From: an uncultured Bacteroidales bacterium | Lineage (GTDB): Bacteria; Bacteroidota; Bacteroidia; Bacteroidales; Paludibacteraceae | NCBI GenBank assembly: GCA_946059305.1 | Contig: CAMGMU010000007.1 | Coordinates: 1-48,074, forward strand | Length of the DNA stretch: 48,074 nt | Direction of reading: 5' to 3' | In this document: positions 3,168 through 38,331 of the stretch, piece after piece | How the letters are laid out: every line of letters starts with the position of its first letter | Numbering within the stretch: the first letter of the stretch is position 1 | Position numbers and translations under genes: made by a program | Notes under the pieces: generated by a model | Seen by the model: only the letters and a program-made list of their open reading frames with translations | What the model was told of the DNA's origin: nothing | Database searches by the model: none

Positions 3168-5096
3168 TCAATAGTCCACTACTTTGCCATACTGGCTCGC
3201 ATTGTACCAGCTCCAATAGTTGAGCTTGGTGCAATCCTTGGCCCAAAGCGGGAAAACGGAGTAAGCATCAAAGATGTGCGTGTTCTCCCTGGGCCAATGC
3301 CAGTCGCCGGCAACGAGTAGCGCTTGCGGCATCAATCCGGGCAGGTCATTAAGGGTGATGAAATCAGAGCAGTCGGTGCATTCACCGCGCTGCACCTCGA
3401 TGAAGAACCGATGGGCATCGGTATTGACAGTATAATCCATTGGCCATGCCACATTGGCAATCTCTACAAAGTCAACGCCTGCATAAGAATTGTCGGTGTT
3501 GATTGTTTTGTCAGCCGCGCCTCCAAGGAGATTGTGGATTTCTCCGAGGTTCACATCGCCATCCGGTCCTTCGTAATGCAAGAACATGCGCGAGGTGCAG
3601 CCCGCTGCCAGAACCCACACACGGCAAGTTTGCTGCTCGTAGTCAGGTTGGAATCGAATCACGGCATCGTTGAAGTCAAAATCCGCTTTGCGTGCCACAT
3701 CCTCGAAAGCCAAAGTCCAGGAGAGGCGGTCTGCATAGTTAACCATTTCTGACAAATCAGGGTCAACAATATCAGGCTTATAAATATCCAGTTTAGCCGT
3801 GACGCAAAATATCAAGTCGTTGCAGTCGAGGTCGTTGCCCCTGCAGTCGTTCTCCATTCCCATCCATATAGAATACGGACGCTCTTCTACGAAGCTGCGG
3901 AAGTTTCCTTCTGGGTTGATACTATTCATGCCTTCTGCCGAAAAGCTTGTGCCTTTGAAATTCTCGCGGCTGGTATATGGCCGGACTCCTTGCTTAATGA
4001 GGCGGTCGTATTGCTCGGGGGCTGGCTGCATTTCCCAACGGTCGTAAAAGCCGATGCGCATGCCCTGGGGCACATCAATGGTGAAGGTAGCCCCTCGCAC
4101 CGTTGTGACACTGCCGTTCTCCCCACCTGAATAACGATTGAGCACAGCCATCATATTGTAGGCATCGTCATCCCTACGGGCAAAGGTGGGCGGTGCGCGG
4201 TCATAGAGGTCATACATATCGAAATTGGCATCGTACCAATGTTCGGTTTCCAGTCCGTAGCGTGCTGCAGCAATGGTATCTACCTGATACTGCACCTTAG
4301 CAAGATTATCGATGTAATCATAAAGCTCCGTCTCGGTGATATCTACGTATTCAATATCTTCATACGTACCTGGCGAGTGGTAGTAATAGCCCAAAATATG
4401 CGACGTAGTAGAAAGGCAGTTGCCAGCAATCATCGTAATCTCAAACGGGCCATTTGACTCAAATTCGTAATTGCAATTCAGCCCCATCACCTCCTTTACG
4501 TTTCTACCCTCCACCTTCATCTTATTGATCATGTAGTTGCAATCGGTCATGTGATCCGTGCCAAGTTGGAAATACGTAGCATTGCCTGCAACGCTTGGTC
4601 CGTAAAGCGAAGAGCGGTCTGCAGCACGCGCAGCCGACGATTCAGGGGTCATCAGCGCGGGAGCAATCTGCATATCGGAATCTTCAGAGGTGAAGCTCAG
4701 GCTGATTTCTTCCGTCAGTTTGCCTGAGATAAGTACGGAAGAGGTGTACAATTTCTTGTGGTATTCAGCCACCATATATATATTACGATTGCCCGTTTGC
4801 GGCACGGTAAGTATCGCTTCACCGCTGTTTTCCAAAACCGCATAATCATAGAGGGTGCCCTCAGTTGGGGCAGAGAGCGCCCATAGTTTGACGGGTGCAT
4901 CGGTCGTGACATATACTTTCAGCTCCACCGCTGTTTTCCACCATTGCAGTGTGCTGACGTCTCCCCCGAGCGAGGCAATGAAAGAAGCCTGGGTACGTTC
5001 GTATTCGCTGTAGCTTTCAGAACTGCAGTTGGTTAGCGCTATGCCCCCGGCGAGGGCAAACAGGCTGAAAAAAGTCTTTCTAATCATGTTGCTCAT
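3168..5096 (-). CDS. LruC domain-containing lipoprotein B
   Basis: About 642 aa when started at ATG 5096. That start is chosen because it overlaps the upstream stop as ATGA (5093-5096), has GGAGA about 8 nt upstream, and leaves a standard lipoprotein signal MIRKTFFSLFALAGGIALTN-C. The longer frame from 5135 would add a charged leader. The C-terminal region has the LruC/DUF4842 hallmarks: NDLDCNDLIFCV, LSWTLAFEDVARKADFDFND and VAGDWHWPREN, ending in a Trp-rich YWSWYN motif. It is paralogous to the gene at 617-2599. Translational coupling to the OmpA-like gene suggests they act together at the outer membrane. The substrate or partner is unknown. Confidence 0.82.
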   Translation of the reverse strand: MSNMIRKTFFSLFALAGGIALTNCSSESYSEYERTQASFIASLGGDVSTLQWWKTAVELKVYVTTDAPVKLWALSAPTEGTLYDYAVLENSGEAILTVPQTGNRNIYMVAEYHKKLYTSSVLISGKLTEEISLSFTSEDSDMQIAPALMTPESSAARAADRSSLYGPSVAGNATYFQLGTDHMTDCNYMINKMKVEGRNVKEVMGLNCNYEFESNGPFEITMIAGNCLSTTSHILGYYYHSPGTYEDIEYVDITETELYDYIDNLAKVQYQVDTIAAARYGLETEHWYDANFDMYDLYDRAPPTFARRDDDAYNMMAVLNRYSGGENGSVTTVRGATFTIDVPQGMRIGFYDRWEMQPAPEQYDRLIKQGVRPYTSRENFKGTSFSAEGMNSINPEGNFRSFVEERPYSIWMGMENDCRGNDLDCNDLIFCVTAKLDIYKPDIVDPDLSEMVNYADRLSWTLAFEDVARKADFDFNDAVIRFQPDYEQQTCRVWVLAAGCTSRMFLHYEGPDGDVNLGEIHNLLGGAADKTINTDNSYAGVDFVEIANVAWPMDYTVNTDAHRFFIEVQRGECTDCSDFITLNDLPGLMPQALLVAGDWHWPRENTHIFDAYSVFPLWAKDCTKLNYWSWYNASQYGKVVDY

Positions 5097-6793
5097 TTTA
5101 GAATCTCCAAATAATTGTCGTCTCTTAATTTCCATTTCACTTTGCCCTCCATAGCATCCATCACATCGTTGAGGTATTGCACCTCCTCGCCCGTGCCTGC
5201 TTTTTTCAGATACTTACGTGCGTCTTGCAAACGCCGCGAATGAATGCACGCGCAGGCAGCATTATAGTTAGCCAGCGAATCGCTGGGGAAGCGCTCAGCG
5301 GCAATCAGCAATGCATCACGCCAGTCGTCGGAACCTTCGTCATAGCTTTGCGCCACGCCGAACATCTCCAAGTGGCTCAACACCTCAGGATGGGTATAGA
5401 TAAGCTGGCGCGCTTCTGCATTGGAATACGCTCGCACAGTGTATTCTATTACGTAGTCCGTATGGCGCAGCCCCGGATAAACGTGTTTGAGCAGCCATTT
5501 ATACGGCTCGCCGCCGCCTATCTTTTTCAGCAAGCGCTCTTTCTCATCGGGGTCCATTACACTGTCAATCACTGCAAGCAGTTCTTCGCTGTGGCGAAGT
5601 ACGGCGGGAGGCGCGATGGGTGTTTCGAGAATGGCGGCACTCTCATACCAGATGTCGCCTTTCACTCTGCGGCGGTTGCCTGCAGCGATGAAGGAGCGCA
5701 GGTTCGGCCAATCCTCTGGCGTAAACGCCGTTGTGAAAACCGCAGCCGGGAGACTGTATTTGCCTTGGAGGTACGCTTTCAGGGCCTCTGTACGCCCTTG
5801 GGCGAGACGCGTATTGTTGGCATACGGGCTTTCGGGTGATGCATATCCATGGAGGGTGATGCTAAGCACTTCAAAGGATGGGTCGAAGAGCGCACTGTCA
5901 ATCGTGTTATTAATGCGCTTCAGTTCATCGGGGTTACGGCGGTAGTCAGGATAAATAACCGTTTCGTTGACCGGGAAATCCAGGAACGCACGACCTTTCA
6001 AGCACCGCACTTTGCCTTCCTCTGGATCCGGATTCAGGAGCGGCAAGGTAGGGATTGTGCGCAGACGAGAGTCGTAGTTTACTGGGAAGGCGGGCTCAAT
6101 CTGCTTCTTGCTGCGCGGCACGAGCATGTAAGTAAAGCCCAATTTAAGGTTACTACGCATATCGAGCGGAGCACCATCCTTAACGCCATTGAAGTGGTCG
6201 ATAAAGAAGTTATGACTCAGCTCCGCTCCAAGAAGCCAGTTCTTTGACAAAGCATACGTGGCAGTCAGTCCAGCTCGGAAGGCAAAGCACACAGTACTGT
6301 TTTTAGAATAGGCAACGGTGTAAGAAAGCGGCACATCCTTGGGGAAAGCAAACGTGTAGGCAGCGCCTATGCCGCCAAATAATTTCAAATTAAATGGCGG
6401 ACGCTGCTCGCGAGGCTTACGCTTGCAATTACTATCGGTGAGGTCGATGGTGGCATCAGCAAACGCCTCCACACTATGCCAGCCCCAAACATCGCTGTAC
6501 TCGCAAGGCGGCACGTTGCGGCTCTTATTGTGGTTGAAGCGCAAGGCGGTTCGCCACCCCCATAGGGGAGTCCATTCTTTACCAATGCCAAAAAACACAC
6601 CGCCCGACCACGGGTATTTCGAAAACTCCGACCAGGGCAGATTTTCGTTGGCCGACTTATTGATACCGGCATACAACTGAAAATAAAGCGGATCAATGAG
6701 TTGTATATTGGTCGTATCGGCCTCTTCCTCGGCATATAGGCCGAGGGGAAAGAGAGAAAAGATGAATAATAAGATATGCTTAACTATCTTCAT
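5093..6793 (-). CDS. OmpA-like outer-membrane protein with barrel and tetratricopeptide-like tail
   Basis: 566 aa with signal peptide MKIVKHILLFIFSLFPLGLYA. Residues of about 30-230 are rich in alternating aromatic strands (FFGIGKEWTPLWGWRTALRF, LGAELSHNFFIDHF, LKLGFTYMLVPR), as in an 8-stranded barrel. A periplasmic OmpA-like part follows (about 265-400: SITLHGYASPESPYANNTRL, then QGRTEALKAYL), the usual peptidoglycan-binding pattern. The C-terminus (FPSDSLANYNAACACIHSRR, then LQDARKYLKKAG) looks like one or two TPR helices. The same arrangement is found in Bacteroidales fimbrial and surface-adhesin loci. It is translationally coupled to LruC gene B and lies 40 bp downstream of wecB, so it may be read from the polysaccharide operon. 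No separate promoter was seen in the gap 6794-6833. Confidence 0.8.
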   Translation of the reverse strand: MKIVKHILLFIFSLFPLGLYAEEEADTTNIQLIDPLYFQLYAGINKSANENLPWSEFSKYPWSGGVFFGIGKEWTPLWGWRTALRFNHNKSRNVPPCEYSDVWGWHSVEAFADATIDLTDSNCKRKPREQRPPFNLKLFGGIGAAYTFAFPKDVPLSYTVAYSKNSTVCFAFRAGLTATYALSKNWLLGAELSHNFFIDHFNGVKDGAPLDMRSNLKLGFTYMLVPRSKKQIEPAFPVNYDSRLRTIPTLPLLNPDPEEGKVRCLKGRAFLDFPVNETVIYPDYRRNPDELKRINNTIDSALFDPSFEVLSITLHGYASPESPYANNTRLAQGRTEALKAYLQGKYSLPAAVFTTAFTPEDWPNLRSFIAAGNRRRVKGDIWYESAAILETPIAPPAVLRHSEELLAVIDSVMDPDEKERLLKKIGGGEPYKWLLKHVYPGLRHTDYVIEYTVRAYSNAEARQLIYTHPEVLSHLEMFGVAQSYDEGSDDWRDALLIAAERFPSDSLANYNAACACIHSRRLQDARKYLKKAGTGEEVQYLNDVMDAMEGKVKWKLRDDNYLEILK

Positions 6794-23672: not shown

Positions 23673-24086
23673 ATGAATCCAACTCACATTGAGCATCTTG
23701 GTATCGCCGTAACCTCATTAGAGGAGGCAATGCCGTTTTTCGAGTTTTTGACGGGCCAAAAATGCTACTCCATTGAAGAAGTAGCCGACCAGAAAGTTAA
23801 GACCGCTTTCTTCAAAGTAGGCGAAGTAAAAATCGAGCTTCTTGAGGCTACGAGCCCCGAGTCGTCGATTGCCAAGTTCATTGAGAAGAACGGTGGCCGC
23901 GGCGGTGTTCACCACGTAGCTTTCAACGTAGAGAGCGTAGAAGAGGCCCTCAAAGAGGCTGAAGCAGCTGGCATCCAGCTCATCGATAAGTGCCCTCGTC
24001 CGGGTGCAGAGCATCTGATGATTGCTTTCCTCCATCCGAAATCCACCAAGGGTATCCTCACCGAACTCTGCGAACAACCTAAATAA
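23673..24086 (+). CDS. mce: methylmalonyl-CoA epimerase
   Basis: 137 aa, normal length. VOC-fold protein beginning MNPTHIEHLGIAVTSLEEAM (metal-binding His in HIEHLGIAV), with VKTAFFKVGEVKIELLEATS, GGVHHVAFNVESVEEAL and a final GILTELCE carrying the metal-ligand Glu. It interconverts (R)- and (S)-methylmalonyl-CoA, linking B12-dependent mutase to the decarboxylase encoded directly downstream. It is first gene of a five-gene plus-strand operon for the succinate-propionate pathway. Confidence 0.95.
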   Translation: MNPTHIEHLGIAVTSLEEAMPFFEFLTGQKCYSIEEVADQKVKTAFFKVGEVKIELLEATSPESSIAKFIEKNGGRGGVHHVAFNVESVEEALKEAEAAGIQLIDKCPRPGAEHLMIAFLHPKSTKGILTELCEQPK

Positions 24087-24150
24087 TTTTAATTGAAGAA
24101 CAAGGTCAAGCTCAGCGTTTTGAGCTTGACTGTTCGTAACAGACTATAAT

Positions 24151-25713
24151 ATGGCAACAAATTCAGAAAAACTTCAGAAGCTCATCGAGAAGCGTGAGCA
24201 AGCTATGGCAGGCGGTGGTGCTGCAGCCGTAGAAAAACACCACGCCAAAGGCAGCTACACGGCTCGTGAGCGTATCAACAAACTGCTCGACGAAGGCAGC
24301 TTCGAAGAGGTGGACATGTTCCTCACTCACCGCTGCACCGACTTCGGAATGGAGAAGAAAGTGTTCTTGGGCGATGGCGTAGCTGTTGGTTCAGGTACGA
24401 TTGACGGCCGTTTGGTCTTCGTGTTTGCGCAGGATGCTACCGTAATCGGCGGCTCGCTCTCTGAGACGATGGCTCAAAAGATCTGCCACGTGATGGACCT
24501 CGGTATGAAACTGGGTGCACCGATCATCGGTTTGAACGACTCGGGTGGCGCACGTATTCAGGAAGGTGCTTGCGCACTGGCAGGTTACGCAGAGATCTTC
24601 GAGCGTAATATCCTTGCATCGGGCGTTGTTCCGCAGATCTCCGTTATCTTCGGCCCCTGCGCCGGTGGTGCCGTTTACAGCCCTGCCCTCACAGACTTCA
24701 TCATGATGACCGAGCAGAACTCCTATATGTTCATCACCGGTCCGAAGGTAGTGAAGTCGGTTACGGGTGAAGACGTAACGGTAGAGCAGCTCGGTGGCGC
24801 TAAGGTACATGCTACCAAGTCGGGCGTTACCCACTTCGTAGCTGCTACGGAAGACGAGGCATTGGCAGAGGTTCGCCGCCTGGTAAGCTTCATTCCGCAG
24901 AACAACATGGAAGAGGCTCCGCGCGTAGAATGCACCGACCCGATTGACCGCGTAGAAGACAGTTTGAACGACCTCGTACCCGCTGACCCCAACAAGCCTT
25001 ACAACATGAAGGATATCATCAACCTGATTGTGGATAACGGCGACTTCATGGAGGTTCAGAAAGATTATGCAAAGAACATCATCTGCGGTTTCGCTCGCTT
25101 CAACGGCCGATCTACGGGTATCATCGCCAACCAACCGAGCTGGATTGCCGGCGTATTGGACTGCGATGCTTCTCGCAAAGCCGCTCGCTTCGTTCGTTTC
25201 TGCGATGCCTTCAATATTCAGATTCTTACGCTCGTTGACGTTCCGGGCTTCCTCTGCGGTACGGGTCAGGAGTATGCCGGCATCATCGACCATGGTGCTA
25301 AGCTGATGTTCGCCTTTGGCGAGGCTACCGTTCCTAAGGTAACCATAACGATTCGTAAGTCTTACGGCGGCAGCCATATCGTGATGTCGTGCAAGCAGCT
25401 TCGTGGCGACTACTGCTACAGCTGGCCGAATGCAGAGATTGCCGTAATGGGTGCATCGGGCGCAGTAGGTGTGCTCCACGCTAAAGCCATCAAGGCTATC
25501 GAGGATCCTGCAGAGCGCAAGGCCTTCATCGCTGAGAAAGAAGCAGAATACAAAGACAAGTTCGCGAGCCCATATCAGGCAGCTAACCGCGGCTATATTG
25601 ATGACGTTATTGAACCGCGCAACACGCGCAAGCGCATCATCAAAGCCTTCGAGCAGCTCCAGACCAAGAAGCTCACCAACCCGCTCAAGAAGCACTGCAA
25701 TATTCCTCTTTAA
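24151..25713 (+). CDS. mmdA: methylmalonyl-CoA decarboxylase/carboxyltransferase alpha subunit
   Basis: 520 aa, standard for the acyl-CoA carboxyltransferase family (PccB/MmdA). The N-terminal crotonase-like half has SYTARERINKLLDEGSFEEV, GLNDSGGARIQEG and FGPCAGGAVYSPALTDF. The C-terminal half has VDVPGFLCGTGQEYAGIIDH, GAKLMFAFGEATVPK and RKSYGGSHIVMSCKQLRGDY. Within an operon that also encodes a sodium pump beta subunit and a biotin carrier, it is the carboxyltransferase of methylmalonyl-CoA decarboxylase, moving CO2 from (S)-methylmalonyl-CoA to biotin and releasing propionyl-CoA. A propionyl-CoA carboxylase role is possible, but no biotin carboxylase gene is present. Confidence 0.93.
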   Translation: MATNSEKLQKLIEKREQAMAGGGAAAVEKHHAKGSYTARERINKLLDEGSFEEVDMFLTHRCTDFGMEKKVFLGDGVAVGSGTIDGRLVFVFAQDATVIGGSLSETMAQKICHVMDLGMKLGAPIIGLNDSGGARIQEGACALAGYAEIFERNILASGVVPQISVIFGPCAGGAVYSPALTDFIMMTEQNSYMFITGPKVVKSVTGEDVTVEQLGGAKVHATKSGVTHFVAATEDEALAEVRRLVSFIPQNNMEEAPRVECTDPIDRVEDSLNDLVPADPNKPYNMKDIINLIVDNGDFMEVQKDYAKNIICGFARFNGRSTGIIANQPSWIAGVLDCDASRKAARFVRFCDAFNIQILTLVDVPGFLCGTGQEYAGIIDHGAKLMFAFGEATVPKVTITIRKSYGGSHIVMSCKQLRGDYCYSWPNAEIAVMGASGAVGVLHAKAIKAIEDPAERKAFIAEKEAEYKDKFASPYQAANRGYIDDVIEPRNTRKRIIKAFEQLQTKKLTNPLKKHCNIPL

Positions 25714-25725
25714 CAGACAATCATT

Positions 25726-26127
25726 ATGAATATCTTACTTGCAGTAACAGCTGATACATGGATCATTACCGGTCTTGGTTTTGGTATCGTGCTCGCGTTG
25801 CTCGTTTGCCTCATCTATATCCTCAAGTTCTTCGGCTTCGTAATGCAGAAGGCTACCGGAGGTTGCAAGAAAGAGGCAAAGGCAGCTCAGCCAGCGCGCG
25901 TAGAGCCGAAGACCAAGGTGTCGCCTGTGCCGACCGACGAAGGCACGATGGCGGCTATCGCCATGGCATTGAGCGAGGCAAGCGACGACGATAAGGTGGC
26001 TATCGCTATGGCGCTCCACCTCTATTATGGTCACGCTCACGACTTCGTTGACACCAACCTCACCATGACCGCTAAGCCGACCGCATGGAACAGCAAAGTA
26101 TTCGGCATGAACAACGCCGGATTTTAA
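25726..26127 (+). CDS. OadG/MmdD-like small membrane subunit with C-terminal extension
   Basis: 133 aa. One membrane helix (WIITGLGFGIVLALLVCLIY, about residues 12-32) is followed by a Lys/Ala/Pro linker, as in OadG gamma subunits that hold the decarboxylase complex together. A C-terminal region of about 65 residues is longer than in classical gamma subunits and contains MAAIAMALSEAS and then VAIAMALHLYY, a repeated A-I-A-M-A-L. Position between mmdA and the biotin carrier gene strongly supports the call. Role of the extension unknown. Confidence 0.85.
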   Translation: MNILLAVTADTWIITGLGFGIVLALLVCLIYILKFFGFVMQKATGGCKKEAKAAQPARVEPKTKVSPVPTDEGTMAAIAMALSEASDDDKVAIAMALHLYYGHAHDFVDTNLTMTAKPTAWNSKVFGMNNAGF

Positions 26128-26172
26128 TCATTCAAAAAATCGGCCAAACGGCCACAGTATAAAAACACAATT

Positions 26173-26622
26173 ATGGCAAAAGAATTTTCTTTTAAGATCA
26201 ACGGCGCTGAATATAAGTGCGCTGTAGAAGAGATTGAAGCAGGCCTCACCGAGGTAACTGTAAATGGCAAAAAATATACGGTAGAAACCGAGAAGCCGGT
26301 AGCTCCCGCACCTAAAGCAGCTCCTAAAGCAGCACCCGCTGCCGCTGCTCCCGCACCTGCTGCCCCTAAGGCTGCCGCTCCCGCTGCTCCTAAGGCTGCT
26401 GCCGCTGCTGGCGCTCAGGTTAAGAGCCCGCTGCCCGGTTCGGTAGTGAAGGTTTGCGTTAACGAAGGTCAAGACGTGAAGAAGGGCGACACCCTCCTCA
26501 TTCTCGAGTCCATGAAGATGGAGAACCCGATTCTTGCAGAGCAGGATGGTAAGGTAGCTCAGGTAGCTGTAGCTGCCGGTCAGACCGTAATGCAGGACGA
26601 CCTGCTCGTAGTACTCGCATAA
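26173..26622 (+). CDS. biotin carboxyl carrier subunit
   Basis: 149 aa. An N-terminal segment ([20 protein letters not shown]) and an Ala/Pro-rich flexible linker (about residues 45-80) precede the biotinyl domain with the motif [12 protein letters not shown]115 is the biotin attachment residue. It shuttles carboxyl groups from MmdA to the membrane subunit MmdB. The linker is a GCT/CCC-rich simple-sequence stretch, usual for this family. Cotranscribed, 45 nt after the gamma-type gene. Confidence 0.95.
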
Positions 26623-26638
26623 TTTTCATAAACACATT

Positions 26639-27814
26639 ATGGATATTATCAATTTCTTCCAAGGCATGGGTTTCATGCAGATAGACTGGCAGCAGGCAGT
26701 GATGCTCCTCCTGAGCTTCTTCCTGCTCTGGCTGGCTATCCACAAGAAATATGAGCCGCTACTGCTCCTCCCCATCGCATTCGGAATGCTCTTGACCAAT
26801 CTGCCGGGTGCGGGCATGTTCCACAGCGAGTTGTGGACGGCTTTCCTCGATGAGAGTTCGCCCGCTTACCACTCATACGGCGCCATCATGAAGGAGGGCG
26901 GCCTCTTGGATGTGCTCTATATCGGCGTTAAGGCAGGCGTTTACCCCTGCTTGATCTTCATCGGTGTAGGTGCCATGACGGATTTCGGTCCGCTCATTTC
27001 CAACCCCAAGAGCCTCATCCTCGGTGCGGCTGCTCAGATTGGTATCTTCGTGACGTTCCTTTGCGCAAGCTTTATGGGCTTTACGCCTGCTGAAGCCGGT
27101 TCAATCGGTATCATCGGTGGTGCTGACGGTCCTACCTCGATTTTCCTCACCTCTAAGTTGGCTCCGCATTTGCTGGGCCCGATTGCTATCGCTGCTTATT
27201 CGTATATGGCCCTCGTACCGGTTATTCAGCCGCCTATCATGCGTGCCCTCACCACCAAGAAAGAGCGCGCTATCAAGATGGGGCAGCTCCGTCCGGTATC
27301 TAAGACTGAGAAGATCGTGTTCCCGGTAATCATCACGGCTGTGGTAGCGCTCATCCTCCCGGATGCCGCTCCGCTGATTGGCTGCTTGATGCTCGGTAAC
27401 CTGATGAAAGAGTGCGGCGTTGTAGATCGTCTGTCGAAGACCGCTCAAAACGAGCTGATGAATATCGTTGTGATCTTCCTCGGCTTATCAGTAGGCGCAA
27501 CGGCAACCGGTGCATCGTTCCTCAACGTTAAGACCATCATGATCCTCGCCATGGGTATCGTTGCCTTTGGTTTGGGTAGTGCAGGTGGCGTTTTGCTCGC
27601 TAAATTCATGAACCTCTTCCTCAAAGAGAAGATCAACCCGCTGATTGGTTCGGCTGGCGTATCGGCAGTGCCGATGGCTGCTCGCGTATCGCAGACAGTT
27701 GGTCAGGAAGAGAACCCGAGCAACTTCCTCCTCATGCACGCTATGGGTCCGAACGTAGCTGGCGTAATCGGCTCGGCTGTAGCTGCCGGCGTACTCCTTA
27801 CGATGCTCGGATAA
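26639..27814 (+). CDS. mmdB: sodium-translocating decarboxylase beta subunit
   Basis: 391 aa, about 10-11 membrane segments. Family hallmarks: [20 protein letters not shown], the essential Asp loop [20 protein letters not shown], and the C-terminal [20 protein letters not shown] then [20 protein letters not shown]. It decarboxylates carboxybiotin and exports Na+, so propionate formation is coupled to energy conservation. It is the last gene of the operon and is followed by an intrinsic terminator at 27844-27878. Oxaloacetate decarboxylase is the alternative, but the epimerase gene in the operon favours methylmalonyl-CoA. Confidence 0.93.
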
Positions 27815-33380: not shown

Positions 33381-33412
33381 TTTGGTTATTCCAATTATTT
33401 ATAGTAACTTTG
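33381..33412 (+). promoter_or_regulatory. promoter upstream of the cobalamin riboswitch
   Basis: TTTG at 33381-33384, 20-bp spacer, TAACTTTG at 33405-33412. The predicted start is near 33418, just before the riboswitch aptamer. Confidence 0.8.
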
Positions 33413-33440
33413 CAGTCGGTTTCAAAGAAACCATCCACAT

Positions 33441-33607
33441 AGTGCATTCAGGTGTCTGGCTTCACGGCCAGACTTAATAGGGAATCAGGTGAGAATCCTG
33501 AACAGTCCCGCTGCTGTAAGTTTCTACCCACAGTTGCCCATTACGCCACTGACGAAATACGTTGGGAAGGCGGGTAGCCGAAACGAGTCAGAAGACCTGC
33601 CTGTTTG
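33441..33607 (+). promoter_or_regulatory. cobalamin riboswitch aptamer
   Basis: Hallmarks in order: AGGTGTCTGGC, TTAATAGGGAATCAGG, GTGAGAATCCTGAACAGTCC, CGCTGCTGTAAG, GCCACTG with GGGAAGGCG, and the B12 box AGTCAGAAGACCTGCC at 33586-33601. This is the class I adenosylcobalamin-type architecture. It lies on the transcript of the T9SS protein at 33765 and should shut that gene off when B12 is plentiful. Confidence 0.95.
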
Positions 33608-33690
33608 TATGTCATAGAACTCTCGAGGAAAGAGTAACGGACACAATGGCTGCCATCCCGCATGGGGTGTGTGGTGTTGCGCGTTTGGTT

Positions 33691-33725
33691 ATCCATTTCT
33701 CTACGTTCTGAGAAGTGGATTTTTT
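33691..33725 (+). terminator. riboswitch-controlled intrinsic terminator
   Basis: ATCCATTTCTC (33691-33701) pairs with GAGAAGTGGAT (33710-33720), 11 pairs with one wobble, followed by TTTTT (33721-33725). It sits between the B12 box and the start codon at 33765 and is the expected expression platform. Confidence 0.85.
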
Positions 33726-33764
33726 GTGTGCTTAACAACAAATAAATAACCAAAACAAACAACA

Positions 33765-35552
33765 ATGAAACGAATTTTTCTCTTTTTTATGCTCGTTATT
33801 GCCGCATTCGGTATGCGAGCTCAGAAGGCAGCTTATACGATAAGTCTGCCGGAAGCAGTATGGAATTTCGATGATTACGAAGGCACCAAACCATCAGTTA
33901 GTTCAAACTCGTATCTCGTTCCGCAAAATTGGATTGTAGGCAACGGTGGCAGTTCAAAAAACTCACCTGCATATTGCCCTTTTATCTATCCATACACAGG
34001 AGATGCCACCTCTTCGTATGGCTACGATGGTCGTCTTTGCATGCGTATGTATCACAATGCCTCCGCCAGCAGAACGGCCCCATTTGCAGTGCTCCCGCTC
34101 ATCCGCGATGTGGACTACTCGCAACTGCAACTTACGTTTATGGGCAAAGGCGAACAAAGTAGTGGTTCATACACCTATTCAAACCGCCTTCGCATTGGGT
34201 ATATCAATTCGCTGGCAGATACATTGAAAGCCAATTTCAACGCGGCTGTGGTAAACTTCCACGATGAAGTACTCCCTACAAGTGGTTATCAGCAATATAC
34301 CATTTCGCTCTCGGGAATCCCAACAGGTGCGCGCATAGTGCTCTACGATAATGATTCTACTGTCAATAATTCCATTTTGCTCGACAATATCCGTATCGTC
34401 CAAAAACCCAATACCACTATTGAGCCGGAGCCTTCGTCTGCTCCCAAGGTTACTGTATATGCCTACTATCCTGATTTGATTGCGCTCTTCAAATGGGATG
34501 TACTCCTCTCCTCCAATGCAGGAACAACATTCGTTGCAGCCGATATCCTGGATTCTATCAACACCTACGATCCGAATACGACCATAGATGGCATCCCAAG
34601 TGGTTTTATCAACGAAATCACTGTAGTCGCCCCCGATGGCGTAACCTACGATGGCGCGACAGCTGAAGCTGCTTCAGAAAGTGGCATGGGATATTGGATG
34701 TATAATCTCAACGACCGATTGGCCCCATCGGGTATTGCGGGCCAAACTATCGTTGCCGGAGATGTAATTTTTTGGGAGTTTAAAACGGATTGGAGCAACA
34801 TGGATGTCACGCAGTTGGCGAATGTGCCATCCAACGTTTATTCCGTAGATTTCGGTGTTGTCAATGCCGCTCCTATCCAGCACGATACGACCGCCATCAG
34901 CTGCGGAGCATTCACATGGGAGGGACAGACGTACACCCAATCGGGCGATTACAGCATCAACAAGCAAACAGCCAATGGCACGGAGCACTTAACCCTGCAT
35001 TTGACAATCAATCAGTCCTATCATTTCGATGAATATCTTACGGCTTGCGATTCAATAGAATGGAAGGGAACAACCTACACCGAATCGGGCGATTACACCT
35101 TCAGCGATACGACTGTCAACGGCTGCGATTCTACTACTGTACTCCATCTGACGATTAATAAGAGCACTTATGAAGAACGTTCTGAAACGCATACCGATAG
35201 TCTTATTTGGAACGGACAAATCCTCAAAGAATCGGGAGATTACATCTTCAGCGATACGACCGTAAACGGCTGTGATTCTACCATTGTACTCCATCTGACC
35301 ATAGAGCCAACCTCTGCACTGAGCAACACAACCCTTCAGGTTGCAGTATGGCCGAATCCTACCACGGAGGTTCTTCACTTACAGGCAGAGGGCGGAACAG
35401 AAATCTACATTTTCGACGCTACCGGTCAACTCGTTATTCGTCAAGTTTATGCAGATACCCTTAACGTGAGCACTTTGCCAAGCGGCATGTATCTCATCCG
35501 CTTACAGACAACTAACGGACAAACAGCCACCACGCCATTCATCAAGAAATAA
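33765..35552 (+). CDS. riboswitch-controlled T9SS-secreted protein with transcobalamin-like (DUF4430-like) domain
   Basis: 595 aa. Signal peptide at 1-20 (MKRIFLFFMLVIAAFGMRAQ). Residues about 30-212 look like a jelly-roll/cleaved-adhesin domain (AVWNFDDYEG, NSILLDNIRIV). Residues about 226-346 resemble DUF4430, the C-terminal fold of transcobalamin and intrinsic factor: VTVYAYY, FVAADILDSIN, GFINEITVVAPDG, then MGYWMYNLNDRLAPSG and IVAGDVIFWEFKTDW. Three repeats follow at about 375-415, 420-465 and 470-513 (CDSIEWKGTTYTESGDYTFS, GCDSTTVLHLTI). Residues 522-595 form a type A T9SS sorting domain (VAVWPNPTTEVLHL, IYIFDATGQLVIR, LPSGMYLIRL). B12 control plus this domain suggests cobalamin binding at the surface or in the medium. 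The domain call is by eye and binding is inference. Confidence 0.78.
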   Translation: MKRIFLFFMLVIAAFGMRAQKAAYTISLPEAVWNFDDYEGTKPSVSSNSYLVPQNWIVGNGGSSKNSPAYCPFIYPYTGDATSSYGYDGRLCMRMYHNASASRTAPFAVLPLIRDVDYSQLQLTFMGKGEQSSGSYTYSNRLRIGYINSLADTLKANFNAAVVNFHDEVLPTSGYQQYTISLSGIPTGARIVLYDNDSTVNNSILLDNIRIVQKPNTTIEPEPSSAPKVTVYAYYPDLIALFKWDVLLSSNAGTTFVAADILDSINTYDPNTTIDGIPSGFINEITVVAPDGVTYDGATAEAASESGMGYWMYNLNDRLAPSGIAGQTIVAGDVIFWEFKTDWSNMDVTQLANVPSNVYSVDFGVVNAAPIQHDTTAISCGAFTWEGQTYTQSGDYSINKQTANGTEHLTLHLTINQSYHFDEYLTACDSIEWKGTTYTESGDYTFSDTTVNGCDSTTVLHLTINKSTYEERSETHTDSLIWNGQILKESGDYIFSDTTVNGCDSTIVLHLTIEPTSALSNTTLQVAVWPNPTTEVLHLQAEGGTEIYIFDATGQLVIRQVYADTLNVSTLPSGMYLIRLQTTNGQTATTPFIKK

Positions 35553-35570
35553 AGCGTGCTTTAACACGAA

Positions 35571-35601
35571 TCAGGCTCCCAATGGGGAGCCTGATTTTTT
35601 T
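35571..35601 (+). terminator. terminator of the riboswitch-controlled gene
   Basis: TCAGGCTCCC (35571-35580), AATG loop, GGGAGCCTGA (35585-35594), then a run of seven T. Perfect 10-bp stem, 18 bp after the stop codon. Confidence 0.9.
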
Positions 35602-37212: not shown

Positions 37213-38331
37213 TTAATTATATCCATAAGCATCCACTTCAACGTAGAACTGCGCGACTGACTCTGCGTTTGGAGCGGTGTTTTTGGAAATATACGGATCG
37301 AGGTCAAAATCAATCGTGATTACGCCCATATCGCTGGGCAGATGTCGAATCGTCCAATAGTGCACATTGCAAGGCTGCCCCGGTCCCCAGCCGCAGCGAT
37401 CATACTTATAGGTGCCGGCTTGCTTATAGTTATCGGAATTTTCCTCGAAGAGATAACCCGTTTTCGCAAGCGTATCGCCATTGAACACAAAGCGATATTC
37501 GTTGTAATCAAACTCTGCCACATTAATGGGCTTGTAGCCTTGTCTGGTGGGGAAAGTGCCATTGCCCACTGTGAGCGCATCCTGCCCATGACCGGTGAAG
37601 CAAGAACGAATCACGATATTCTTCGTTCCACTCGGCACATGAATCACGCGTTTGCCCAAACGGGTAGAATCTTCAATCGAATGGTCTTCCACACCATACG
37701 CCCAAGAGCGATAACCGGTGTTGCCATTGACTGTGGAGTCATAAATCTTCTGATGCCAAGCGGGCTTCCCATTCGGATTCTTACCGCTGAAATAGCATAG
37801 CGAGAGCGCGCAAGCATGTGCCCGCTTCTCGGTAGCATCCCATCCGCAGTAGAAAATGCAGAACTCGGTTTCGCCTTCCAAGAGGGGCAGAAGCGGGGTT
37901 ACGTCGAGGTAAAACACCTTCTGCCAGTCGGACTTAAACGAGCCACCATAAGGCGTGATGCAGCGCGAGAGCTCGTACCATTCGCCTGTGGCCTTATCCT
38001 TCACCTTTATCATCGTAGTCATATCCCACTCTGCCGGACCGTTGTTCCATCCGCACATCGTGTAGCGCAAATAGCATTGTCCGAACTTGCTCACATCGCT
38101 CGGGAGAGCGAGCGTGAATGTAGAATCTTCTTCAAGGCTCCATCCGAAGAAATGCAAGCGCATCGTATCAGAATCCACGCACACAGCCTTCGTAATATCC
38201 AGCTCGGTTTCAAAATCCACTTGCGTCATCCAGCCGCGGTCATCATCGAGCGTTACTGTCATTTCGGCGTTGCGTTCGGGGTCACAAGCAAGCAGAAGAA
38301 AGGGTAAAAGGAGAAGGAAAAGTTTTTTCAT
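37213..38331 (-). CDS. peptide-N-glycosidase F-like lipoprotein
   Basis: 372 aa with lipoprotein signal MKKLFLLLLPFLLLA-C. The N-terminal half has FKSDWQKVFYLDVTPLLPLL then EGETEFCIFYCGWDATEKR, the PNGase F N-domain pattern. The C-terminal half has RSCFTGHGQDA, INVAEFDYNEYRFVFNGD and, most telling, AGTYKYDRCGWGPGQP, matching the G-T-W-x-Y-D-R-x-G-W-x-P-G motif of the PNGase F C-domain, followed by a final strand (ITIDFDLDPYI). PNGase F removes N-glycans from glycoproteins. As a lipoprotein this would let the cell use host or plant glycoproteins. I could not assign the catalytic Asp/Glu residues with certainty, so activity is not assured. Confidence 0.75.
   Translation of the reverse strand: MKKLFLLLLPFLLLACDPERNAEMTVTLDDDRGWMTQVDFETELDITKAVCVDSDTMRLHFFGWSLEEDSTFTLALPSDVSKFGQCYLRYTMCGWNNGPAEWDMTTMIKVKDKATGEWYELSRCITPYGGSFKSDWQKVFYLDVTPLLPLLEGETEFCIFYCGWDATEKRAHACALSLCYFSGKNPNGKPAWHQKIYDSTVNGNTGYRSWAYGVEDHSIEDSTRLGKRVIHVPSGTKNIVIRSCFTGHGQDALTVGNGTFPTRQGYKPINVAEFDYNEYRFVFNGDTLAKTGYLFEENSDNYKQAGTYKYDRCGWGPGQPCNVHYWTIRHLPSDMGVITIDFDLDPYISKNTAPNAESVAQFYVEVDAYGYN

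Follow-up and report, generated by a model that had tools for sequence, protein, structure and literature searches.

Among the genes in the window analysed here (the whole stretch of 48,074 nucleotides from contig CAMGMU010000007.1 of an uncultured Bacteroidales bacterium of the family Paludibacteraceae), one stands behind a predicted cobalamin riboswitch and encodes a protein, P0001, that joins a transcobalamin-like DUF4430 domain to a sorting tail of the type IX secretion system (T9SS). It seems likely that this predicted surface-anchored protein catches vitamin B12 or related cobamides and passes them to a BtuG/BtuB importer encoded elsewhere in the genome.

The transcription unit lies on the plus strand, and all its coordinates are positions in the window (Table 1). 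Its leader holds the only Rfam match in the window, a complete cobalamin aptamer that scores above the gathering score and lies 146 nt 5' of the start codon, and by this sequence criterion we call it a cobalamin riboswitch. The attenuator hairpin has a folding energy of -14.8 kcal/mol, and the segment 33680-33730 around it folds with z = -4.79 and none of 200 shuffles equally stable. The promoter follows the consensus of Bacteroidetes-type promoters (TTTG-N20-TAACTTTG), but on its own this match is weak because a loose form of the pattern has 4 matches on the plus and 3 on the minus strand of the window. Since a second hairpin with a T run ends the unit, the gene looks monocistronic. The initial annotation, which had read a promoter, a cobalamin aptamer and a terminator ahead of a single gene, is thus borne out.

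P0001 starts with a putative signal peptide whose residues 1-20 contain no cysteine and hence no lipobox, so that the protein is not a lipoprotein. The N-terminal beta-rich domain that follows is missing in the shorter relatives P0018, P0020 and P0022. A DUF4430 domain had been proposed at residues 226-346 or so, and the Pfam model PF14478 agrees with 26.7 bits (cut-off 23.8) for residues 303-340, covering only model positions 35-71 of 72; in a six-frame search, the gene scores 28.5 bits. Three runs in the conserved block are invariant among relatives (VYAYYPD, WMYNLND, and GDVIFWE), and hhalign connects the DUF4430 family of the window to tandem T9SS-tailed relatives with a probability of 96.3 and an E-value of 1.7e-9. 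Three tandem beta repeats look like a stalk, and the protein ends, as the initial annotation had it, in a T9SS sorting domain. Among the Pfam matches up to E 1, there is no alpha6/alpha6 family (the N-terminal part of transcobalamin and intrinsic factor), no PF16819 (BtuG, DUF5074) and no PF14717 (BtuJ, DUF4465). The BtuH-related structures 7biz (titled cell surface protein) and 8blw_B are not matched either, and phmmer up to E 10 returned only 8glk_D. The initial view that this protein differs from BtuG and BtuH therefore stands.

Table 1. Features of the P0001 transcription unit, in window coordinates.
Feature	Position	Strand	Basis
Bacteroidetes-type promoter, TTTG-N20-TAACTTTG	33381..33412	+	Pattern match; identical in L007
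Cobalamin riboswitch aptamer RF00174	33433..33618	+	114.7 bits vs gathering score 31.5; complete model 1-189
Attenuator: intrinsic terminator hairpin (11 bp, 33691-33720) and six T (33720-33725)	33691..33725	+	Between aptamer and start codon
Gene of T9SS-tailed DUF4430 protein P0001, 595 aa	33765..35552	+	Open reading frame
Signal peptide, residues 1-20, end RAQ	33765..33824	+	By eye, without a signal-peptide program
Beta-rich N-terminal domain (residues 21-215), perhaps of jelly-roll type	33825..34409	+	
DUF4430/transcobalamin-like domain, conserved block residues 228-367	34446..34865	+	PF14478; invariant runs of relatives; hhalign
Three beta repeats in tandem, each about 45-48 residues long (372-416, 420-465, 469-514)	34878..35306	+	Sequence; strand pattern in the predicted structure
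Type-A T9SS C-terminal sorting domain, residues 528-595	35346..35549	+	PF18962 43.3 bits; TIGR04183 48.5 bits
Intrinsic terminator 3' of the gene, AATCAGGCTCCC-aatg-GGGAGCCTGATT, then T run	35569..35600	+	Read from the sequence

Residues 224-370 found 7 proteins at E <= 0.001 in the protein database, and the genome contig database gave two related loci: L007, from a Bacteroidales metagenome-assembled genome, with a DUF4430 domain 93% identical to that of the window, and L008, from Candidatus Colicola faecequi (Paludibacteraceae), with about 53-54% identity; these two relatives also point to the Bacteroidales as the origin of the window. Both keep the pairing of riboswitch and gene (RF00174 at 115.6 and 107.3 bits, respectively), and the attenuator is present in all three leaders; in L008, none of its 11 pairs is lost, with one altered at both positions and two at a single position, and a TAnnTTTG is retained 30 bases 5' of the aptamer. 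In the L008 protein, DUF4430 is matched across model positions 11-71 with 32.7 bits, and the T9SS tail scores 43.4 bits. For the whole gene, dN/dS is 0.18 against L007 and 0.15 against L008 (where dS is saturated); for the DUF4430 part, it is 0.41 against L007, a value from few changes, and 0.13 against L008. With 54% identity to L008, the domain is no better conserved than the repeats (58%). Two genes around the window gene are also kept at L008 (63% and 68% identical), which favours inheritance in place; yet the PF14478 domain was absent from 36 genomes of the same genus and two further ones. As a separate observation, a 372-aa protein with a lipoprotein-like signal start is encoded at 37213-38331 on the minus strand; its matches to the two halves of peptide-N-glycosidase F are both below threshold (E 0.018 and 0.051), and a 68% identical counterpart lies directly downstream of the DUF4430 gene at L008.

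Across the order, PF14478 was found in 15 of 393 genomes and in a class-wide sample in 2 of 395, the genome of the window included in each; of the other 14 genomes, 13 were covered with wider surroundings, with contigs of 3 and 5 kb for G386 and G047 and 3-kb loci for G263. Nine of the genes encode T9SS-tailed proteins, each above the PF18962 cut-off, and as whole proteins 7 of these pass the DUF4430 cut-off while L030 and L031 fall just under it. Six-frame and whole-protein PF14478 scores differ for G385 (21.9, below the cut-off, vs 29.4), G376 (26.6 vs 23.1) and G156 (24.3 vs 20.2). The initial annotation had suggested a survey for cobalamin riboswitches ahead of other T9SS-tailed genes, and all nine T9SS-tailed DUF4430 genes proved to stand behind one, eight of them directly (G000, G237, G137, G322, G385, G376, G156, and G254). 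In G066, the ninth case, about 6.6 kb separate the gene from the riboswitch upstream of it, which heads genes in the same direction for a TonB receptor, a DUF5074 protein, a T9SS-tailed BtuH-like protein and a second DUF5074 protein. Short DUF4430 proteins are encoded directly behind a riboswitch and before a CobQ-type gene (G078), within riboswitch-led runs of TonB receptor, DUF5074, DUF4430 and cob genes (G179 and G154) or ahead of CobU, DBI_PRT (CobT-type) and CobS genes at a contig end (G047); G386, next to a DAHP-synthase-family gene, and G263 had no B12 context within the 3 kb seen. Altogether, 13 of the 15 genomes show a B12 context for DUF4430, and in 9 of 15 the gene directly follows a riboswitch. 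Hairpins with a T run behind them also occur in the leaders of L034 and L031 (the latter scanned as L020). No hairpin and T run comparable to the attenuator was found in L015, L017, L018, L021, L030 and L032, so that control may be translational there.

The chance of 9 such adjacencies in 15 arising by accident is about 4e-25 in a rough model that takes no account of kinship and is set up with 2000 genes per genome and 92 riboswitches (the riboswitch table sums to 93). The genomes are not independent, with G237, G137, G322 and G385 from one genus (g104) and G156 and G254 from another (g2), and the nine T9SS-tailed cases represent five genera in five families. This recurrence of the linkage in several genera speaks against the idea that P0001 is a general surface adhesin placed behind the riboswitch by coincidence, with a spurious DUF4430 match. 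Its repeats and N-terminal beta domain are indeed adhesin-like, the PF14478 score exceeds the cut-off by only 2.9 bits, and the repeats are as well conserved as the domain. However, the L008 relative matches DUF4430 across most of the model and hhalign joins the two families, and we consider a coincidental adhesin very improbable.

Predicted structures were weak overall, with mean pLDDT values of 55.9 and 51.6 for the AlphaFold models of P0131 and P0001, respectively. With the P0131 model, VIA-align found a match to the cobalamin-holding beta domain of transcobalamin and intrinsic factor at 11-15% identity. For P0001, the 50 matches listed by VIA-align were without transcobalamin, which is uninformative because the DUF4430 stretch of this model has a pLDDT below 50. 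Plain Foldseek with the P0131 model gave sorting tails and other beta-sandwich folds but no transcobalamin among the best 50 of 1630 matches (E <= 10). PDB profile searches with A2, A4 and A5 did not reach transcobalamin either; A4 gave sorting-tail matches and one chance match, and A2 and A5 gave chance matches only. The structural matches of P0131 also include 3u7z, titled putative metal-binding protein, and this could mean that DUF4430 binds another ligand or a protein partner, making P0001 a docking or scaffold part of the B12 regulon at the surface that does not hold cobalamin itself. Archaeal members may use another metabolite, and the covered portions of the literature found contained no tests of bacterial DUF4430 proteins. 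Yet the domain itself is strongly tied to B12 loci, including the short proteins beside CobU, CobT-type, CobS and CobQ-type genes, and the fold that it matches is the cobalamin-holding one, so we regard a different ligand as unlikely.

The favoured reading of P0001 as a cobamide-catching protein has a candidate partner in the same genome. One other cobalamin riboswitch was found in the assembly (95% complete), on another contig, where it heads a DUF4465 (btuJ-type)-btuB-btuG operon: the DUF4465 protein (149.1 bits) matches solved DUF4465 proteins, the TonB receptor is close to BtuB1 (414 bits), and the DUF5074 protein scores 86.4 bits against 8blw_B, the chain that partners BtuB1. Two methylmalonyl-CoA mutase matches in the genome make this enzyme a plausible consumer of the vitamin, and a search of the genome for the B12 domain of methionine synthase found none. 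Separately, the window carries at 23673-27814, 6-10 kb upstream, genes for methylmalonyl-CoA epimerase (138.4 bits, above the cut-off) and sodium-pump decarboxylase-type subunits, of which the mmdA-like one is below the cut-off; this epimerase/decarboxylase pathway is fed by the B12-dependent mutase encoded in the genome. Both the T9SS translocon SprA and the sortase PorU are encoded as well. At E <= 0.001, PF18962 detects three tails in the genome; one lies within the PorU match, and the tail in the window is the sole one above the cut-off. A type-A tail together with PorU is the usual route to surface anchoring, and the two point to P0001 being anchored in this way.

From the lack of a nearby btuB, the initial annotation had concluded that P0001 could work on its own, possibly shed as a cobalophore. 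Stand-alone action as the main reading was dropped because of the second riboswitch-led btuB/btuG operon, and relatives moreover sit in operons with btuG- and btuF-like genes. Freely secreted by the T9SS, P0001 might still pick up cobamides outside the cell and return with them: its gene looks monocistronic, the btuB-like gene is on another contig, and the vesicles bearing BtuJ of Bacteroides thetaiotaomicron were likened to siderophores by the authors in the passages covered (PMC12751083). Such a released carrier appears improbable given the tail type, the presence of PorU and the gene runs in which relatives accompany surface and periplasmic importer parts. Furthermore, we know of no uptake partner for a whole cobalamin carrier.

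With the riboswitch sequence, the protein domains, the T9SS genes and the importer operon at hand, we propose how regulation, anchoring, binding and handover by a surface-bound P0001 might proceed. Cobalamin riboswitches usually act as OFF switches. By analogy and from the parts of this leader, plentiful cobalamin would make the aptamer favour the attenuator hairpin and stop transcription, and under scarcity transcription would pass the attenuator and P0001 would be made. The signal peptide would direct the protein to the periplasm. Export by the SprA/PorU machinery would follow, with the tail cut off and the protein retained on the surface. There, the repeats would serve as a stalk, and a cobamide would be bound by the DUF4430 domain in the manner of the transcobalamin beta domain before being handed to the BtuG/BtuB importer.

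Beyond these close relatives, 1377 of 7997 candidates scored in a protein search with the L021 protein reached E <= 0.001, many of them possibly owing to the tail only. All of the 120 matches listed have several DUF4430 copies (three in 85, two in 27, and four in 8) by a hidden Markov model trained on those same sequences. At L026 and L029, the start codon of the next gene overlaps the end of the DUF4430 gene; this next gene encodes a T9SS-tailed protein, and genes for a DUF5074 protein and a PF01497 binding protein come after it. On balance, we lean towards the view that Bacteroidales run a second, lipoprotein-independent B12 surface layer of T9SS-exported transcobalamin-type arrays (in further genomes of the order also T9SS-tailed BtuH, BtuG and DUF4465 modules) under cobalamin riboswitches, and that they would thus compete for the vitamin by means of the beta domain that animal intrinsic factor also has.

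Several further observations concern T9SS-tailed proteins at such loci. The one overlapping the end of the DUF4430 gene has 326 aa (L029:4502-5482 and L026:5093-6073) and in L029 scores 34.2 bits, below the threshold of 120, against the LIC_13355 lipoprotein family; by eye, L030 and L031 carry a stretch resembling it joined to DUF4430, and L077 has one joined to DUF4465. Other B12-capture modules with T9SS-type tails lie behind or inside riboswitch-led loci at L033, L075 and L077. These are BtuH-like and DUF5074 proteins at L033:3159-4355 and 4379-6043 (BtuH-like: 8blw_B 264.6 and 7biz 144.6 bits; DUF5074 tail below the cut-off), a BtuH-like protein at L075:726-1958 (8blw_B 237.2 and 7biz 146.6 bits; tail 23.2 vs cut-off 23) and a DUF4465 protein at L077:7407-9131. 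In three genomes of the same genus (G007, G001, and G022), a riboswitch precedes genes for proteins of about 2070 residues (L072:4419-10628 on the minus strand, L073:2331-8540, and L074:1442-7633, respectively) with CUB-like PF00431 matches (24.4, 27.8, and 30.8 bits, each individual stretch being below the cut-off), BNR_assoc_N and, at the C-terminus, DUF4465 (about 144 bits). L072 and L073 continue with a second riboswitch and genes for a TonB receptor and a DUF5074 protein.

B12 is contested in the gut, where the described Bacteroides capture proteins BtuG, BtuJ and BtuK are lipoproteins. If true, a T9SS-delivered transcobalamin-type set would lengthen the list of capture modules, give DUF4430 a function in Bacteroidota, tie the T9SS to vitamin uptake and provide bacterial relatives for asking where animal B12 carriers came from. 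Judged by titles and abstract starts, the literature naming DUF4430 includes nothing on the T9SS or Bacteroidota, and the texts searched on BtuG, BtuH, BtuJ and DUF4465 mention neither DUF4430 nor the T9SS. Literature on type IX secretion with cobalamin and on transcobalamin with Bacteroidetes contained no such system in the listed titles and abstract starts of open-access journal papers.

Secreted bacterial transcobalamin-like SLBB proteins were already predicted as B12 scavengers by Burroughs et al. 2007 (PMC1796856), in a clade that we equate with Pfam DUF4430. As described in the passages covered, those proteins share with P0001 and its relatives a secreted transcobalamin-type domain (of beta-grasp fold, putatively so in P0001) and predicted scavenging, several are surface-anchored, one is fused to a beta-propeller, and some occur in operons with a second paralogue. 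By the same passages, several have a Gram-positive anchor and lie near CbiO/CbiQ-type transport genes, and Bacteroidetes are named for the other clade only; the word riboswitch is absent from the text, and the T9SS is unnamed in the passages covered. In contrast, the window and its relatives have a T9SS tail, a cobalamin riboswitch, tandem copies and a btuB/btuG context. P0001 would work like animal transcobalamin and intrinsic factor without being a member of their family: it is bacterial and T9SS-tailed, no alpha domain was detected in it, and identity in beta-domain alignments is 11-15% (P0131 model). An isolated beta domain can hold cobalamin, as is known for human TC-beta (PMC5599065). 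Compared to BtuG, BtuH, BtuJ and BtuK of gut Bacteroides, as covered passages describe them (PMC6143338, PMC8941943, PMC12751083), P0001 shares, by prediction, extracellular B12 capture, riboswitch-regulated loci and work beside BtuB; but BtuG, BtuJ and BtuK are lipoproteins with propeller, DUF4465 or other domains, whereas P0001 is a T9SS-tailed DUF4430 protein.
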